NCBI RefSeq assembly: GCF_009762795.1
Contig: NZ_CP046400.1
Location: forward strand, 1,217,501-1,281,500
Direction: 5' to 3'
DNA length: 64,000 bases
Origin: Pseudodesulfovibrio cashew
Lineage (GTDB): Bacteria; Desulfobacterota; Desulfovibrionia; Desulfovibrionales; Desulfovibrionaceae
The translations under genes and the position numbers were made by a program. Below the pieces are notes generated by a model. It was not told the origin of the DNA and searched no databases. It worked only from the letters and a program-made list of their open reading frames with translations. Shown piece by piece: positions 57,139 through 63,424 of this stretch (positions within the stretch are counted from its first letter, which is position 1; each line of letters starts with the position of its first letter).

Positions 57139-57902
57139 CCGGAGTCGATACCAAGGCCGTGCTGGAACGGCGTGAGTTTTTTCCCCGAGGCATGATTCAG
57201 CCGGAGGGCGGTTATCGCTTTTCCCTGGACTCGCTGCTCCTGGCCTGCTTCGCCCGGCCTGGACGTCGGCACGTGGGCGTGGACCTGGGCTGCGGCTGCG
57301 GCGTCGTCGGTCTGGCCTTGCTCCTGCGCGAGCCGGGGGTGACCGTTACTGGCGTTGAAATCGACACCCAGTCCATCGAGGCGGCAGCGGCTAATGCCGA
57401 TAGCTTGCTCCTTTCCGGTAAGTTTTCGGTAATGCAGGGTGACGTGGGCTCATGGAGGCCGGAGAAGGTGGTGGATTTCGTGGTGGCCAACCCGCCATAC
57501 CGTGAGCTGGGGCGGGGTAGGGTGAGTCGTGGCGACAGCCGTGCGACCGCTCGTTTCGAAGACCGGGGGAGTTTCGCAGGGTTTGCCCGGTGCGCCGCCG
57601 TGGCCTTGAAAACGCGGGGCAAGTTCTCCTTTGTTCACATTCCGGAGCGGTTGCCCGCCCTCATGGCCGCGCTGCACGCCAACGGTCTGGAGCCAAAACG
57701 CATGCGGCTGGTTCACGGGCGTGTGGACGAGCCCGCGCGCATGGTGCTCATGGAGACGGTCAAGGCAGGCGGCAGCGGTCTGAAGGTGGAAGCGCCGCTC
57801 ATTCTGCATGAAGGCAGGGGAAAAGAGACCAGGCTGACGCGAGAGGTAATTGAATTTTGTCCTTTTTTGGACTGCAATCCCGGCACGGAGGAAACAGCGT
57901 GA
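57135..57902 (+). CDS. TrmN6-like SAM-dependent methyltransferase
   Basis: A 255-residue class I methyltransferase. The SAM loop VGVDLGCGCGVVGLALL is at about residues 50-66. The NPPY motif is in FVVANPPYREL and is typical of enzymes that methylate exocyclic amino groups. The N-terminal RREFFPRGMIQPEGGYRFSLDSLLLACF is typical of the TrmN6 (tRNA1-Val A37 N6) family, also called YfiC. The GTG start at 57135 overlaps murJ, with GGAGGG upstream. The exact target base is inferred from family likeness only. Confidence 0.8.
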   Translation: MTGVDTKAVLERREFFPRGMIQPEGGYRFSLDSLLLACFARPGRRHVGVDLGCGCGVVGLALLLREPGVTVTGVEIDTQSIEAAAANADSLLLSGKFSVMQGDVGSWRPEKVVDFVVANPPYRELGRGRVSRGDSRATARFEDRGSFAGFARCAAVALKTRGKFSFVHIPERLPALMAALHANGLEPKRMRLVHGRVDEPARMVLMETVKAGGSGLKVEAPLILHEGRGKETRLTREVIEFCPFLDCNPGTEETA

Positions 57903-58801
57903 GCGAGTACATCCGGAAAAGAGTTGAGGAGCTGTTCGGCGGCGGACAGTTGTATTGCGCCGAAACGGTGCTGGGGCTCATCGCGGAGGCAGGAGGCAGG
58001 GAGGCCAAGGACGTCGTGCCTCTGGCCACCGGATTCTGCAGTGGCGCGGCAAGGACCTGCGGTCAATGCGGGGCCGTGTCCGGCGCGATCATGGGCATCG
58101 GGCTCTTTGCCGGACGAAGCGAGCCGGGCGGCGATTACGAACCATGCTATGCCCTGGTGCAGGAGTTCCTGTCGCGCTTCAATGCGGCGTTCGGGTCCAT
58201 CAACTGCCTGGAACTGACCGGGTGCGACTTCGCCTCCGAAGCGGACCGGGAGCGGTTCAAGGAAGAGCGGATCGTGGTCAAGTGCTTCAACTACGCCGTG
58301 ACCGCCGTCGACATGGCGCTCACCCTGTTGCGGGAGGAAGGCTACCTGCCGGAACGGGAGGATTTCATTCGCTCCAGGCTGGCCCCTTGCGGCCTGTCCT
58401 GCGGAAGCTGCCTCGCCTTTGCAGGTGGGCCTATCCAGCGGCATGCCAAGGCGCTGCAAGCATTGCTGGGCGAGAATTTCGCTGCCTATGCCAAGCGCTT
58501 TGAGGGTATGAATCCGGTTTTTGAGAACTACAGTCAGTTCGAGGTGTTGCTGGGTTTCCTCGGCCAGGGAAGCTGCTCCGGCTGCCGCGAGCAGGGGTGT
58601 CTGTTCCTCCAGTGCAAGGTCCCGGCATGCTGCCGCGAGCACAGGGTGGACTATTGTCACCAGTGCGAGGAATTCCCCTGTGATGTTCACGGCATGCCCG
58701 AAGGCCTTGCCGAGCGCTGGCGGATCAATAATGAAAAGATGCGGGAACTGGGCGTTGCGACGTGGTACCAAGGGTGTTGCGTCAGGCCGCGATATCCCTG
58801 A
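57899..58801 (+). CDS. C_GCAxxG_C_C / DUF3795 two-domain cysteine-rich protein
   Basis: A 300-residue protein with two cysteine-rich modules. Residues 1-145 fit the C_GCAxxG_C_C family (CAETVLGL, TGFCSGAARTCGQCGAVSGAIMGIG, then further Cys). Residues 155-300 fit DUF3795-type zinc or iron-sulfur-like regions (APCGLSCGSCLAF, CSGCREQGCLFLQCKVPACC, YCHQCEEFPC). The GTG start at 57899 overlaps the methyltransferase stop, and GGAGGAAA lies seven bases upstream. The cytoplasmic protein likely binds a metal or iron-sulfur cluster; its function is unknown. It completes the murJ-trmN6-like operon. Confidence 0.78.
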   Translation: MSEYIRKRVEELFGGGQLYCAETVLGLIAEAGGREAKDVVPLATGFCSGAARTCGQCGAVSGAIMGIGLFAGRSEPGGDYEPCYALVQEFLSRFNAAFGSINCLELTGCDFASEADRERFKEERIVVKCFNYAVTAVDMALTLLREEGYLPEREDFIRSRLAPCGLSCGSCLAFAGGPIQRHAKALQALLGENFAAYAKRFEGMNPVFENYSQFEVLLGFLGQGSCSGCREQGCLFLQCKVPACCREHRVDYCHQCEEFPCDVHGMPEGLAERWRINNEKMRELGVATWYQGCCVRPRYP

Positions 58802-58866: not shown

Positions 58867-60216
58867 ATGATAACCAGGATTGTTCTCAAGGATTTCATGG
58901 CTCATGCCGACACTGAGCTGGAGCTCGGACCCGGCATCAATGCTCTGACAGGTCCCAACAACACGGGCAAGTCCGCCATCGTGGAGGCCTTGCGATGCGT
59001 GGCCACCAACCCGATCCCGCGCCACTATATTCGGCACGGGGCCAAGGAGGCGCGGGTCACTGTGGAGCTGGAGGACGGCACCCGCATCGTCTGGGTTCGG
59101 AAAAAACGCTCCTCGGGGTATGAGCTTTGGGCACCAGGCGCGGAAGAACCGGTGGAATACTGGAAATTCGGCCGCAAACCGCCCGAGGACGTCTTGGCCG
59201 CGCTCCGACTGGACCTGGTGGAGCTGGAGGGGGAGAACAAGGATCCTGTTGACGTACATGTGGGCAACCAGCGCGACCCGGTCTTCCTGCTCAACCAGCC
59301 CAAGTCCGACGCCGCCGCGTTTTTTGCCGCGTCCACGGAGTCGGCCCACCTGTTGGCCATGCAGAACCTGCTCAAGCGGAAAACTCAGGATGCGAAGCGC
59401 CGGGAACGGGAGCTCCAGGCGCGGTTGACCGCCATCGAAACCGAAATGGAGCGGTTTTCCCTGTTGCCGGACATCGCGTTGCACCTGGAAACGGCCCGTG
59501 AACTGGAGTCGACAGCAAAGGAACTTCAAGTCGCTGTTCCCGCCCTGGAAGCGACCCTTGCCGACCATGTCACACTGACAGTCGAGCATGCCGGACTGGT
59601 TCGATGCAAGGGGGTTTTGGATACGATTACTGACGTACCGAAACTCAATGATGTAGGTGGATTAACAGAACTGCTCTCACAGTTGGAAGGAACCGGGGCG
59701 TTCCTCAATGGCGCGGCGCGAATTTCAGCAACTCTGGCCGTCCTGGCCGACCCGCCCGAGGTACACGACACCCCGCTTCTGGCCCGCTTCCACAAGGAAC
59801 TGCAAGACATTGAGGCGGCCCTGAATCTCGCTCGGAAACAGGCCGAAACCGGTCGGGCTCTATTGCCTCCCCCAGTGCCGGATGAAACGGCACAACTCGT
59901 CGCAATCCTGGACGAAATCATTGCCCACACCTATCGATCACGGCGGGAGACGCGACGGAGGGAGACGCTTCGGAGCGTTGCGGAACCTCCCGCACTCGCG
60001 GACTGCGAACCTCTCCAAGGGGTGGTGGCCGAGCTTGACGGGATCACCGGGCAATGCCGGGAGGCACAAGACCGCCTGGCAGGCTTGGAGACGGAGTTGG
60101 AGACCTTGGAGAAGCACATTCGCCACCGGCTGGATGAGCTGGGGCGGTGCCCCACCTGCGGCGGGGAGTTGAATTCCCTTGGATTCCTTGAGCGGAGGCA
60201 CGGACATGACGCTTGA
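58867..60216 (+). CDS. N-terminal half of a split Rad50/SbcC-type ATPase
   Basis: A 449-residue protein equivalent to the N-terminal half of Rad50/SbcC. It has Walker A GPNNTGKS at residues 29-36, a Q-loop-like FLLNQPKSD near 145 and long helical arms (about 165-420). A CPTC zinc-hook-like motif lies at 428-431 (CPTCGGEL) near the end. It has no Walker B, signature or H-loop, so it cannot complete an ATPase site alone; those lie in the protein encoded at 61481-62134. The gene overlaps the phosphoesterase gene by 11 bases. ATG 58867 begins MITRIVLKDFMAH, the usual Rad50-type start. The arms are short for Rad50, so a compact complex is expected. Confidence 0.8.
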   Translation: MITRIVLKDFMAHADTELELGPGINALTGPNNTGKSAIVEALRCVATNPIPRHYIRHGAKEARVTVELEDGTRIVWVRKKRSSGYELWAPGAEEPVEYWKFGRKPPEDVLAALRLDLVELEGENKDPVDVHVGNQRDPVFLLNQPKSDAAAFFAASTESAHLLAMQNLLKRKTQDAKRRERELQARLTAIETEMERFSLLPDIALHLETARELESTAKELQVAVPALEATLADHVTLTVEHAGLVRCKGVLDTITDVPKLNDVGGLTELLSQLEGTGAFLNGAARISATLAVLADPPEVHDTPLLARFHKELQDIEAALNLARKQAETGRALLPPPVPDETAQLVAILDEIIAHTYRSRRETRRRETLRSVAEPPALADCEPLQGVVAELDGITGQCREAQDRLAGLETELETLEKHIRHRLDELGRCPTCGGELNSLGFLERRHGHDA

Positions 60217-61165
60217 GCGCATCCGCGGCAACGGACTCTTCTTCATGGCCGACCCGCATCTGGCGGACATTCCGCCCGGTCAGCGGCTCGAGGGTTATCT
60301 CGATCAGATCATGATAAAGCTGGAGGCCGGACTGGCCCGTGCCAGCGAATTGGGGATGGTCACGGTCATCCTCGGAGACCTTTTTCACTGGCCCCGCGAC
60401 AACTCCAACAAGATGCTTGTGGAGTTGATCCGCATCTTCGGGGCGCGGCACGGCGACGAGCAGGTCTGGGCCCTGGTGGGAAATCACGACAAGTATCAGT
60501 CCCGGTTCACCGAAGATGTGTCCCTGGCCGTGCTCGAAGCCGCCGGAGTGATCCGGCTGATGAAGGAGGACGGCCCGCAGTTCGTGCTGGAGACCGGCGA
60601 AGGCGACGTCCTGGTCGGGGCCAGCCCGGACGGCACGCCGCTGCCCAAGGGGTACGCCCGGCAGGAGGGCGATCCAGAGACCGTACTTTGGGTGGCGCAC
60701 CATAACATCCGTTTCCCGGAGTTTCTGGACCGAGCCTACGGTATCAAGGAGCTTCCCGGTATCGACTGGCTGGTCAACGGTCATATCCATCGCCCCCAGC
60801 CGACCGTCAAGAAGGGACAAACCACCTGGGCCAACCCCGGTAATATCACCCGCCTCACCTTCACGGAGCTTTCCAAGGTCCGCGAGCCTGCCGCCGCCAT
60901 CTGGACGCCGGGCTGCGAGGAGCTGGAGAAATGGGTCGTGCCGTTCGAATCTTTTGATAAGGTCTTTCCGGATCAGGAGCTGCCGCCCCAAGATGAGAAC
61001 GCGACAGGAGAGTCCGACTACGTCAAGGGGCTGGAGCGGCTGGCCTGGCAGCGGACCAGGGAAGGCATGGGACTGAAGCAGTTTTTACAGGATAACGTTT
61101 CCCGCAAGAGCAGCGAGGGCAGGCTCATCTGGGAACTCTACGAGGAGGTCGTCAACGGTGAATAA
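60206..61165 (+). CDS. Mre11/SbcD-like metallophosphoesterase
   Basis: A 319-residue calcineurin-type metallophosphoesterase with a complete metal set: D16 and H18 (MADPHLAD), GDLFH at 57-61, GNHD at 92-95, the AHHN near 180 and the GHIH near 205. The fold and partner genes match the Mre11/SbcD nuclease, though the C-terminal part is shorter and has no obvious DNA-capping domain. ATG 60206 lies inside the end of the upstream gene, showing translational coupling. Its own end overlaps the coiled-coil gene by eight bases. It should bind the split Rad50-like ATPase. Confidence 0.82.
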   Translation: MTLERIRGNGLFFMADPHLADIPPGQRLEGYLDQIMIKLEAGLARASELGMVTVILGDLFHWPRDNSNKMLVELIRIFGARHGDEQVWALVGNHDKYQSRFTEDVSLAVLEAAGVIRLMKEDGPQFVLETGEGDVLVGASPDGTPLPKGYARQEGDPETVLWVAHHNIRFPEFLDRAYGIKELPGIDWLVNGHIHRPQPTVKKGQTTWANPGNITRLTFTELSKVREPAAAIWTPGCEELEKWVVPFESFDKVFPDQELPPQDENATGESDYVKGLERLAWQRTREGMGLKQFLQDNVSRKSSEGRLIWELYEEVVNGE

Positions 61166-61481
61166 TCACTCCAACGGAACAGGGAAAAACCAGGATGCCC
61201 AACTGGAGCAGGAGCTTAACGGCCTGCGTCGGCAGTATGAACAACTGCGGGATCAGCGGGTCCGCACGGAGCAGCAGGTGACGGATCTGACCGGCCGCCT
61301 GGAGGCGCTCAAGGCGCGCGCTGAAGCCGAATACGGCACCAGCGACCCGAAGGAACTGCAAGCGTTGCTTGAAGAAAAAAGAGAGGAAAACCGCAAGGTC
61401 GTGGCCAGCTACCGCGAGCACATCCAACAGATTCAAGCCGATCTGGCCGCCGTTGAGAGCGGGGTGGGCGGGGATAACTGA
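61158..61481 (+). CDS. small coiled-coil protein of the split Rad50 operon
   Basis: A 107-residue protein rich in Glu, Gln, Lys and Arg, with a long predicted coiled coil from about residue 15 to 95 (LEQELNGLRRQYEQLRDQRVRTEQQVTDL is its first heptads, here as a region). It has no cysteine and no catalytic motif. The GTG start at 61158 overlaps the phosphoesterase stop, and its own stop overlaps the next ATG (TGATG). It could be the missing part of the Rad50 coiled-coil arm or a bridging subunit; no family is recognised. Confidence 0.65.
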   Translation: MNNHSNGTGKNQDAQLEQELNGLRRQYEQLRDQRVRTEQQVTDLTGRLEALKARAEAEYGTSDPKELQALLEEKREENRKVVASYREHIQQIQADLAAVESGVGGDN

Positions 61482-62134
61482 TGACGACGGATGTGGCCCT
61501 GCCGGATATCCGCGAGGCGGAACGCAGCCTGGACCGTTTGGAGGCTCTCGCCGAGAGCTTGCATAACGAGCATGGGCGGGTGCGCTCCTCGCTTGGCGCC
61601 GAGCGCGAGTTTCTGGTGCTCGCGCCGGAGGCGAGGGACCGTCTCGAAGAACTGTCCAAGGCCCTGTTCGGCAAAATCCTGGACGAAGTGGAGCTTAACC
61701 TGACCCATGGCATCCGGGAGATTCTCGGCCAGGACCGCGTGGTCTTCACCGAACGGGAGGTGAAGAACAACCGCCTCCAGATTCATTTCCAGATCCAGAA
61801 CCGTGGTCGGGACGATGAGGTGGAGGATATCCTCACTGGTCAGGGCGGCTCGGTCTGCAATATCCTCTCAGTGGGGCTGCGCCTGATCGCCCTGTCGCAG
61901 CTGCCTGAAGAGCATCATCGCCGTTTCCTGGTGCTGGACGAGCAGGACTGCTGGCTCAAACCGGCGCTGGTACCGAAGTTCATGAAGATCATCAACGAGA
62001 TAGCCGACAAGCTTTCATTGCAACTTCTGGTCATTAGCCACCACCCCCTTGATCTTTTCGCCGGTGCCGCCGATCGGATTTTCGAGCTGAAGCCGGACCG
62101 GGAGCGCGGAGCGGTGGTTACCCGCGTGAAGTAG
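61481..62134 (+). CDS. C-terminal half of a split Rad50/SbcC-type ATPase
   Basis: A 217-residue protein with the ATPase elements missing from the first gene. An ABC-type signature region LTGQGGSVCNILSVG is at residues 118-132, Walker B FLVLDE at 149-154 and an H-loop histidine at 187 (LLVISHH). A helical arm spans residues 1-80. It has no Walker A, so it can only complete an ATPase site together with the 58867-60216 product. The ATG overlaps the coiled-coil gene stop. The signature is divergent from the usual LSGGE of Rad50. It ends the four-gene operon. Confidence 0.8.
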   Translation: MTTDVALPDIREAERSLDRLEALAESLHNEHGRVRSSLGAEREFLVLAPEARDRLEELSKALFGKILDEVELNLTHGIREILGQDRVVFTEREVKNNRLQIHFQIQNRGRDDEVEDILTGQGGSVCNILSVGLRLIALSQLPEEHHRRFLVLDEQDCWLKPALVPKFMKIINEIADKLSLQLLVISHHPLDLFAGAADRIFELKPDRERGAVVTRVK

Positions 62135-62303: not shown

Positions 62304-62834
62304 ATGAAACGAGCGAGTTTGTTTCTGTTGGCGGTATTGGTTTTGGGCGCTACGTGCGCCTACGCAGGGGATCCCTTCCCCGACCTCGCGCTCGGCGGCA
62401 AGCTGGACGAGGATCAGCGGGCGTATCTCGGGGTCGCCTCCGATTCCTTCAAGTTGAGCGACATTCGGGCCGAGTACCTCTTTATCGAAGCCTATTCCAT
62501 GTACTGTCCCATCTGCCAGCGGGACGCGCCCCACGTGAACGAGGCGTTTGAGGCGATTGCCGCGGCCGACAAAGCGGGCCGGATTCGCTTCCTTGGGCTG
62601 GCTCTGGGCAACACGCCTTTCGAGGTGGAGTTCTACAGGAAGAAGTACGCGGTCCAGTTTCCCCTGTTCGGCGATGAGGACTACGTCATCCACAAGGCCC
62701 TGGGCGAAGTTCCCACGCCGGCCTTTTATGTCGTCAAGCTCGGTCCGGAGCCGGAAATCCTTTTCAAGAAGGTGGGAGAAGCCGAGGGCACTGAGGCGCT
62801 GTTACAGGCCATCAAGGAGCATACTGGGATATAA
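62304..62834 (+). CDS. exported thioredoxin-fold protein with CxxC (TlpA-like)
   Basis: A 176-residue protein with signal peptide (cut near AYAG, residue 21) and a thioredoxin fold. The redox motif is CPIC in YSMYCPICQRDAPHVN (near residue 69), and the cis-proline region is GEVPTPAFYVV. It is expected to reduce or exchange disulfides in the periplasm, like TlpA/ResA proteins. AAGGAG precedes ATG 62304. It is followed 14 bp later by a peroxiredoxin-like gene, likely one operon. Confidence 0.82.
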   Translation: MKRASLFLLAVLVLGATCAYAGDPFPDLALGGKLDEDQRAYLGVASDSFKLSDIRAEYLFIEAYSMYCPICQRDAPHVNEAFEAIAAADKAGRIRFLGLALGNTPFEVEFYRKKYAVQFPLFGDEDYVIHKALGEVPTPAFYVVKLGPEPEILFKKVGEAEGTEALLQAIKEHTGI

Positions 62835-62848
62835 GTTGAGGTGATAAT

Positions 62849-63424
62849 ATGCTGAAAAAGATAGTTTTCACGATTATCGTAGGGTTATTGGCAACTGCCT
62901 CTTATGCGGATAAGCTGACCATCTACCAACTTCCGGAGCTCAAGCCGCGCGACAGTGTCCTCAAGGTCAAGGTGGGCAACCCGGCGCCGGACTTCGAGCT
63001 GCCGTCCATAACGGGAGAGCGGGTGCGCCTGAGCAGCTTCAAGGGGAAGAGCAATGTGGTTCTCTCCTTTGTCCCGGCCGCCTGGACGCCTGTGTGCTCG
63101 GACCAGTGGCCGGGCTACAACATCGCGTTGTCCCTGTTCGAGCAGCACGACGCTGTCCTGCTCGGCATCAGCGAGGACAACACGCCGTCCCAGTACGCCT
63201 GGTCCGAGGCCATGGGGACGCTCAAGTTTCCGGTTCTCTCGGATTTCTGGCCTCACGGCGCGGCAGCGTCCAGCTACGGGGTGCTGCGTTCGGACGGGAC
63301 CAGTGAGCGGGCCCTTTTCGTCATCGACCGGCAGGGAATCATCCGCTACATCGACGTACATGATATCAACAGGCGTCCCGATCTGGGGGTGCTCATTCAG
63401 GAGCTGTGCAAGCTCAAGAAGTGA
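62849..63424 (+). CDS. exported AhpC/TSA-family peroxiredoxin-like protein
   Basis: A 191-residue protein with an N-terminal signal peptide (cut near SYADK) and a peroxiredoxin fold. The active-site motif reads FVPAAWTPVCSDQ, matching the PxxxTxxC pattern; a later Cys is at the C-terminus (ELCKLKK). It would reduce peroxides with the upstream thioredoxin-like protein as a plausible partner. GAGGTGA precedes ATG 62849. It ends at a strong terminator. Confidence 0.85.
   Translation: MLKKIVFTIIVGLLATASYADKLTIYQLPELKPRDSVLKVKVGNPAPDFELPSITGERVRLSSFKGKSNVVLSFVPAAWTPVCSDQWPGYNIALSLFEQHDAVLLGISEDNTPSQYAWSEAMGTLKFPVLSDFWPHGAAASSYGVLRSDGTSERALFVIDRQGIIRYIDVHDINRRPDLGVLIQELCKLKK

Follow-up and report, generated by a model that had tools for sequence, protein, structure and literature searches.

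Near the end of a 64,000-nucleotide stretch of the Pseudodesulfovibrio cashew genome (contig NZ_CP046400.1, positions 1,217,501 to 1,281,500; hereafter the window) lie four overlapping forward-strand genes, P1 to P4. At a probability of roughly 0.8, we read them as encoding a divergent DNA-end nuclease of the Mre11-Rad50 (SbcCD) type, in which Rad50 is split at the hook and which stands in for SbcCD. Coordinates without a contig are those of the window, and handles beginning with G, C and L denote genomes, contigs and fetched loci.

Gene layout, motifs and fused relatives

The motifs of a Rad50 ATPase head are divided between the first and the last gene. P1 (58867..60216, 449 aa) has those of the N-lobe, with Walker A (GPNNTGKS, residues 29-36) and Q-loop Q135; it continues into an arm of 39-residue LxxLxxPPxL repeats (59614..60141, residues ~250-425) and carries CPTC near its end, at 428-431, as a predicted half hook. 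P4 (61481..62134, 217 aa) has an N-terminal helix and the C-lobe motifs, namely a signature-like TGQGGSV (119-125), Walker B FLVLDE (149-154) and H-loop H187. Between them are P2 (60206..61165, 319 aa from its ATG), a calcineurin-like phosphoesterase of the Mre11/SbcD type, and P3 (61158..61481, 107 aa, GTG start), a helical protein of near-constant length with a conserved YGTxDPxEL stretch. A sequence-only reading of the window had given these positions for Walker A, Walker B and the H-loop, assigned the CPTC to P1 and the signature to P4, and placed a phosphoesterase and a 107-residue coiled-coil protein between the halves; all of this held on re-examination, as did the overlaps of 11, 8 and 1 bases at the P1/P2, P2/P3 and P3/P4 joints. 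The first of these figures follows from taking the ATG at 60206, which is preceded by GGAGG, as the most likely start of P2; an alternative TTG start at 60179 gives a frame of 328 aa, to which the P2 residue numbers below refer.

Among Pfam models, AAA_23 matches P1 (2.6e-12) and Metallophos matches P2 (6.5e-6). P4 has no Pfam match above the cut-off and was recognised by its motifs, by phrog_15167 'ATPase' (1.4e-5) and by fused relatives; its profile gave only weak ABC/SMC matches among PDB sequences. The P2 profile finds Mre11 at 2.6e-5, with Mre11 and SbcD chains leading and one UDP-diacylglucosamine hydrolase at 0.0035, and we call P2 divergent because the TIGR00619 SbcD model has no match in its own genome. 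In alignments of the window's family (49, 54, 53 and 54 rows for P1 to P4, excluding partial copies and the broken locus L097), the invariant positions are K35 and S36 of Walker A, Q135 and CPxC in P1 (49/49); D25, H27, D67, N102, H103, H174, H202 and H204 in P2 (54/54); and G120-S124 (GQGGS), D153, E154, S186, H187 and H188 in P4 (54/54). We take the P2 residues to be the phosphoesterase metal ligands, which would leave P2 an Mre11-type enzyme with its metal-binding residues intact in every row. All four genes are under purifying selection: dN/dS is 0.05-0.38 across six close pairs; in two pairs that are further apart it is 0.14-0.52 for L060/L088 and, for L076/L072, 0.11 in P1 and saturated in the other genes.

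That one ATPase is assembled from two chains, as the sequence-only reading inferred, is backed by relatives in which nature has joined them. In these the P4 part comes first, the P1 part second and the CxxC last; P3 is encoded upstream of the fused gene and P2 downstream of it, so that P3-P4-P1-P2 is a cyclic permutation of P1-P2-P3-P4. We found the fused form in 10 of 80 genome loci (Variovorax, Microvirga and other Hyphomicrobiales), with domain positions confirming the order in L112 and L121, and in all five plasmid loci opened out of nine plasmid records with a P2 relative; the 15 include one Variovorax pair with identical P2. We regard these permuted fusions as strong evidence that the halves act together. 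A P2 tree was built from 102 rows, 98 of them distinct, by a quick search without a topology test, with three SbcD and two YhaO-like rows as the root. It gathers the 15 fused rows into a single clade (support 100) that sits within split rows (99, 97); support for the root branch is 77, and the phage rows are long-branched.

A model of the 656-residue Variovorax fused chain (alignment A5) reached a mean predicted local distance difference test score (pLDDT) of 83.9; within residues 1-420, pLDDT was at least 87 in 37 of 42 ten-residue blocks. Foldseek against the PDB matched it to the Rad50 half-chains 9a9j_A, 9a9j_B, 1f2u_B, 1f2u_D and 1f2u_C, at target-normalised template modelling (TM) scores of 0.60-0.70. 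The A and C chains are also matched by a model of P1 alone, and the B and D chains are the other Rad50 half. The predicted fold is that of a Rad50 head built from N and C lobes.

Arm, predicted hook and helical P3

In the model of the window's P1 (alignment A6, mean pLDDT 79.1), the head leads into a long helix (159-253) and four further helices (264-291, 302-331, 339-370 and 381-425), after which comes CPTC. P1 ends just past this motif, and there is no mid-chain hook followed by an antiparallel return strand, unlike in single-chain Rad50. When a profile of the P1 end was compared with PDB sequences, the Rad50 hooks 6zff (4.7e-6) and 1l8d (1.1e-5) took ranks 1 and 2, other CPxC proteins trailing from 0.002. 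A CxxC lies near the C-terminus of 113 out of 113 proteins examined (the window's P1, 15 fused and 97 split, the last group taking in one Bacillus phage protein and some that are partial), and the tail behind it is rich in histidine, often as HxH: at least one follows in 97/113 and at least two in 69/113, and these may add metal ligands. The terminal CxxC is therefore, on this sequence evidence, a predicted zinc-binding half of a hook; of the earlier suggestion that it is a hook remnant, the hook stands and the decay does not, the motif being kept in all 113.

The arm repeat was scored with a loose LxxLxxPP-type motif picked after the consensus had been seen. In 109 P1 or fused proteins it gave 137 successive spacings, 98 of them exactly 39, and 23 of the remaining 39 are multiples of that unit (78, 117, 156); over 50 rounds of shuffling the arms, spacings of 35-45 averaged 0.02 with a maximum of 1. 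For 86 of 93 split P1 proteins the span between Q-loop and terminal CxxC could be measured; it clusters at 258 (16 proteins), 297 (38), 336 (7) and 375 (2), with values reaching 534. On the 18 distinct distances the best period is 39.0 (39.5 over all), and none of 500 random sets was equally periodic, with the proviso that these are related sequences and not independent. Judged by these spacings, the arm of split P1 is quantised in 39-residue units; in the fused proteins, only 4 of 15 of which could be measured, there is no evidence of the period.

P3 was considered as the full-length return strand of Rad50 and rejected because it is not longer where the arm is longer: it keeps to 97-123 aa while the arm spans eight units (rho 0.20, p 0.07, n=83). 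It probably acts at the arm or the arm base. For P2, a hint comes from two related family genomes (G051 and G010) with a lone P2 relative of 262-265 aa, 38% identical, that lacks the C-terminal ~60 residues (L098 5187-5984, minus strand, and L099). It adjoins a relative of the methyltransferase gene that precedes the operon in the window and is therefore at the same locus as the array; neither genome has a P4 anywhere, and the stretches fetched contain neither P1 nor P3. This suggests that the ~60-residue tail of P2 binds the ATPase.

Distribution and mobile relatives

The search for homologous four-gene arrays that the sequence-only reading had proposed shows that the array is not peculiar to the P. 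cashew genome. In the window's family, P4 occurs in 56 of 149 genomes, counted as 55 after dropping G017 (3.3e-4), and all 10 same-genus genomes carry it; P2 occurs in 57, namely those 55 and the two with lone relatives. The order P1-P2-P3-P4 on one strand is found in 49 of the 54 other family genomes fetched, a count that includes five with contig-cut P1 or broken frames (L064, L073, L080, L093 and L097). P4 lies apart from P1-P2-P3 in G121, G058, G031 and G005, and in G041 both parts are at contig ends, so that displacement is undecidable. A gap of 0.85-2.6 kb separates P3 from P4 in seven of the 49 (G069, G088, G016, G037, G043, G071 and G090), and that of G069 holds an RNB-domain gene. Among 59 fetched family stretches, the window's methyltransferase gene recurs in 34, its MurJ-like gene in 27 and its MutM-like gene in 20, all named from sequence. 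This tally is a direct count within the family; a clustering of neighbours that lumped 1,832 frames of all 144 loci was dropped.

A genome collection described as holding 84,980 species was scanned once with P4 profile A3; this gave 123 confirmed loci, and 80 were kept. Profile searches, with profiles broadened by plasmid and phage members, sorted these into 57 with P1-P2-P3-P4, 10 fused, 8 with P4 alone, 4 with P2-P3-P4 and 1 with P3-P4. Unbroadened profiles (E for a 23-sequence set) already found the Variovorax P1 (6.1e-55) and P4 (1.1e-29) and, in a Microcystis phage described below, P1 (3.6e-22), P2 (3.8e-10), P4 (1.7e-10) and P3 (1.5e-4). Complete split loci span at least six phyla, their titles naming Planctomycetota, Desulfobacterales and kin, Sumerlaeia, Parachlamydiaceae, Bacillota, Verrucomicrobia, Poribacteria and Fimbriimonadaceae; some Desulfovibrionaceae genomes, such as those of L159 and L068, were present in both collections and are hence not independent. 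The P3-P4 locus begins at a contig end, as do all but one of the four with P2-P3-P4. Two of the eight P4-alone loci are at contig edges, and P2 is found elsewhere in five of the eight genomes. In a search of the phylum, 57 genomes out of 395 reached E <=0.001; 20 of these were below 1e-30, and four of the 20 are family members. Matches worse than 1e-9 (frames of ~1190 aa and many of 250 aa) were put aside as other ATPases by score alone.

The phages collection holds three cases. Microcystis phage Mvi-JY20 has P1-, P2- and P4-like genes and a 94-aa gene at the place of P3, overlapping and in the same order, ~1.3 kb after a RecA-like gene; its P3 match is weak and tentative. Bacillus phage vB_BboS-125 has a P1-like gene, an AP2 gene, a 78-aa gene whose P3 match is not significant (0.024), a P4-like gene and a P2-like frame (8e-25), and in Microbacterium phage Magritte P1-, P2- and P4-like genes are scattered. 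These cases rest on that collection because single-sequence and profile scans of viral_contigs gave no confirmed relative of P4; the fused protein had no match in the phages collection. Families phrog_16465 ('exonuclease'), which matches P1, and phrog_15167, which matches P4, are by sequence probable phage members of the same system; they are listed separately and not paired as halves of one Rad50.

A few loci are recorded here for their own sake. The array of L097 (G082:C18) lies in several broken frames of a fragmented genome that is 87% complete, which may reflect either the quality of the assembly or decay. L209 (G453:C40) has a 260-aa frame with short P1 and P4 pieces in one reading frame, an apparent internal deletion of the array, and L101 (G046:C3:305724-305975) is a second, partial P4 copy with two in-frame stops. 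The AP2-domain gene of vB_BboS-125 (L102 5910-6482) stands between its P1-like and P4-like genes. In the window itself, a C_GCAxxG_C_C redox domain joined to DUF3795 is encoded upstream of the operon (57857-58801), and two AhpC/TSA-family proteins are encoded downstream (62304-63424).

Relation to SbcCD, rival explanations and meaning

The P. cashew genome has no match to the SbcD model, a search that gave matches in 13 controls out of 14, with 8 exceeding cut-off. It has no SbcC over cut-off, only a 40-residue match, with a model that passed cut-off in 1 of 14 controls; its best AAA_23 place is, by our reading of the sequence, a RecN-like protein. SbcD exceeds cut-off in 30 of 149 family genomes, 29 of which are among the 94 split-negative and one among the 55 split-positive; a match of any strength occurs in 78/94 and 6/55, respectively. 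Many of the 78 are weak and fall on 400-600-aa frames, which are possibly of YhaO type. A further 50 genomes with the system, accounting for 50 of the 80 loci, comprise 10 with the fused form and 40 with the split form, in two of which just P2-P3-P4 was seen; SbcD exceeds cut-off in three of the 50, all split. From this distribution, the split system probably stands in for SbcCD in these genomes. In one split-system genome (L227, G133:C14), SbcD-like fragments with a stop and, by reading, an SbcC C-terminus lie beside a large AAA gene; they are possible remnants of a lost sbcDC.

Several observations count against our interpretation. The SbcC search is a poor test, and the genome has six Metallophos places besides those inspected. 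Genera are near-uniform, so that shared ancestry confounds the anticorrelation with SbcD and the cases are not independent events; the same-genus genome G116 (G116:C1:1177265-1178053) has both systems and is alone among the split-positive members of the family in having SbcD over cut-off, and some SbcD-model match is present in 31 of the 50 other holders. L150 (G565) has P2-P3-P4, not at a contig end, with no P1 within 3.5 kb upstream. The P1 model has a predicted TM score (pTM) of only 0.35, and that of the fused model is 0.60; Foldseek aligns a single half of the latter each time (TMq ~0.2, without aligned ranges), as expected because the order is permuted. Foldseek ranks two Smc5/6 chains first for P1 (2.1-2.2e-6) and Rad50 at 3-8 (1f2u_A at 2.9e-6), and the P1 profile finds Rad50 at 1.3e-9 and SMC6 at 9.5e-9, so the P1 head alone cannot tell Rad50 from SMC; by sequence, the phosphoesterase partner and the hook match speak for Rad50 over SMC/kleisin. 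The canonical ABC signature is LSGGE; that of P4 is TGQGGSV, which makes its ATP contacts uncertain, and three fused plasmid forms read GNGGA, DQGGA and ENSGA at a site whose position fits and whose letters differ. Two phage P1-like proteins fall outside the count of 113, one with CxxC and one, from Magritte, without.

The sequence-only reading left open whether the complex serves repair or nucleic-acid defence. Rad50-type ATPases do serve in defence, and an ATPase-nuclease that recognises invading DNA and cuts it, in the manner of Lamassu, Gabija or the retron ATPase systems, with its chromosomal spread secondary, would fit the relatives on plasmids and phages and the PADLOC matches: P1 matches LmuB best (9.5e-16, residues 2-437 on model positions 5-343) and also GajA, P3 matches LmuB weakly (0.0016) and P4 weakly matches mad3 (4e-7). 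LmuB is a 611-position single-chain model, and LmuA and LmuC are not listed as matching P2, P3 or P4, nor are they among the best 25 matches of P1. We nevertheless consider the defence reading improbable. Most of those best 25 of 79 PADLOC matches of P1 span the P-loop only and P2 has none. The presence of the locus in 10/10 same-genus genomes and the shared neighbours (annotated within the family only) are unlike patchy islands, and six neighbours in the window are without a PADLOC match. Together with the SbcD anticorrelation, these observations lean towards genome maintenance.

That P1 and P4 work independently, as two ATPase-related proteins (say, a regulator and a nuclease partner) with no common nucleotide site, seems to us very unlikely. 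It would suit the four family genomes with P4 apart and the eight of 80 loci with P4 alone; against it stand the single fused chain in 15 loci, the company that displaced P4 still keeps with P2 in all such family genomes and in 5/8 others, and the complementary motifs, each of P1 and P4 lacking those of the other. A sequencing error, pseudogene or recent breakage in this genome we hardly credit at all: the order recurs in 57/80 loci and 49/54 family genomes, and selection is purifying. The single-base error or deletion that the earlier reading named, one that would rejoin the halves, is excluded because P2 and P3 separate them.

The split Mre11-Rad50 system that we favour would work as follows. 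P1 would supply the N-lobe, arm and terminal zinc-hook half and P4 the C-lobe, giving a composite P1+P4 head; by analogy with Rad50, two heads would sandwich two ATP, and ATP would drive their closure. P2 would be the Mre11 nuclease, its last ~60 residues probably binding the arm base, with P3 probably at the arm or its base. Zinc would join two CxxC termini and so tie together arms of the same complex or of different ones, and the arm would lengthen or shorten by whole 39-residue units. The distribution suggests a repair role, in which the machine would probably open blocked or hairpin DNA ends for recombination in place of SbcCD.

Like Mre11-Rad50/SbcCD, the array combines a metal-motif phosphoesterase, an ABC head (Walker A, Q-loop, Walker B, H-loop), a CxxC hook at the tip and operon linkage. 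It differs in making Rad50 from two chains of ~450 and 217 aa, against model lengths of ~850-1050 aa, with a helical P3 in addition, no return strand past the hook, a modular arm and a signature other than LSGGE. The PDB entries 1f2t/1f2u and 9a9j also have separate N and C segments, and the fused model matches both halves; the separate half-chains of 1f2u presumably form one head. Those entries are, we assume, deposited fragments of a single-chain protein, whereas the split here is natural. Rearranged Mre11-Rad50 genes in viruses and plasmids are described in PMC3175470, with Mimivirus R555 and kin carrying an Mre11-like domain fused ahead of a Rad50-like domain and two fusion cases lacking one P-loop segment; unlike in those fusions, Rad50 itself is here split or permuted and Mre11 is separate. 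Our searches of open-licence papers turned up no account of a split or permuted Rad50.

Taken jointly, the observations would describe a distinct Rad50/SMC-class architecture with separable, permutable head lobes. Its arm would be a single-chain array, topologically open, whose modules are exactly 39 residues long and which ends in a zinc hook, with reach set by module number and not by a folded-back coiled coil; P3 would complete the arm base, the split form would be ancestral in the family, and the permuted one-chain form would have arisen once from it in Pseudomonadota. We hold this fuller picture as an even bet. Rad50 is thought to depend on a chain that runs to the hook and back, and a widespread natural Rad50 that is broken at the hook, has lobes able to withstand separation and permutation, and has an arm whose length is quantised would let the purpose of the return strand, chain continuity and arm length be tested. 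Two phage protein families would gain a likely joint function, and the split system would explain bacteria that appear, by standard models, to be without SbcCD.

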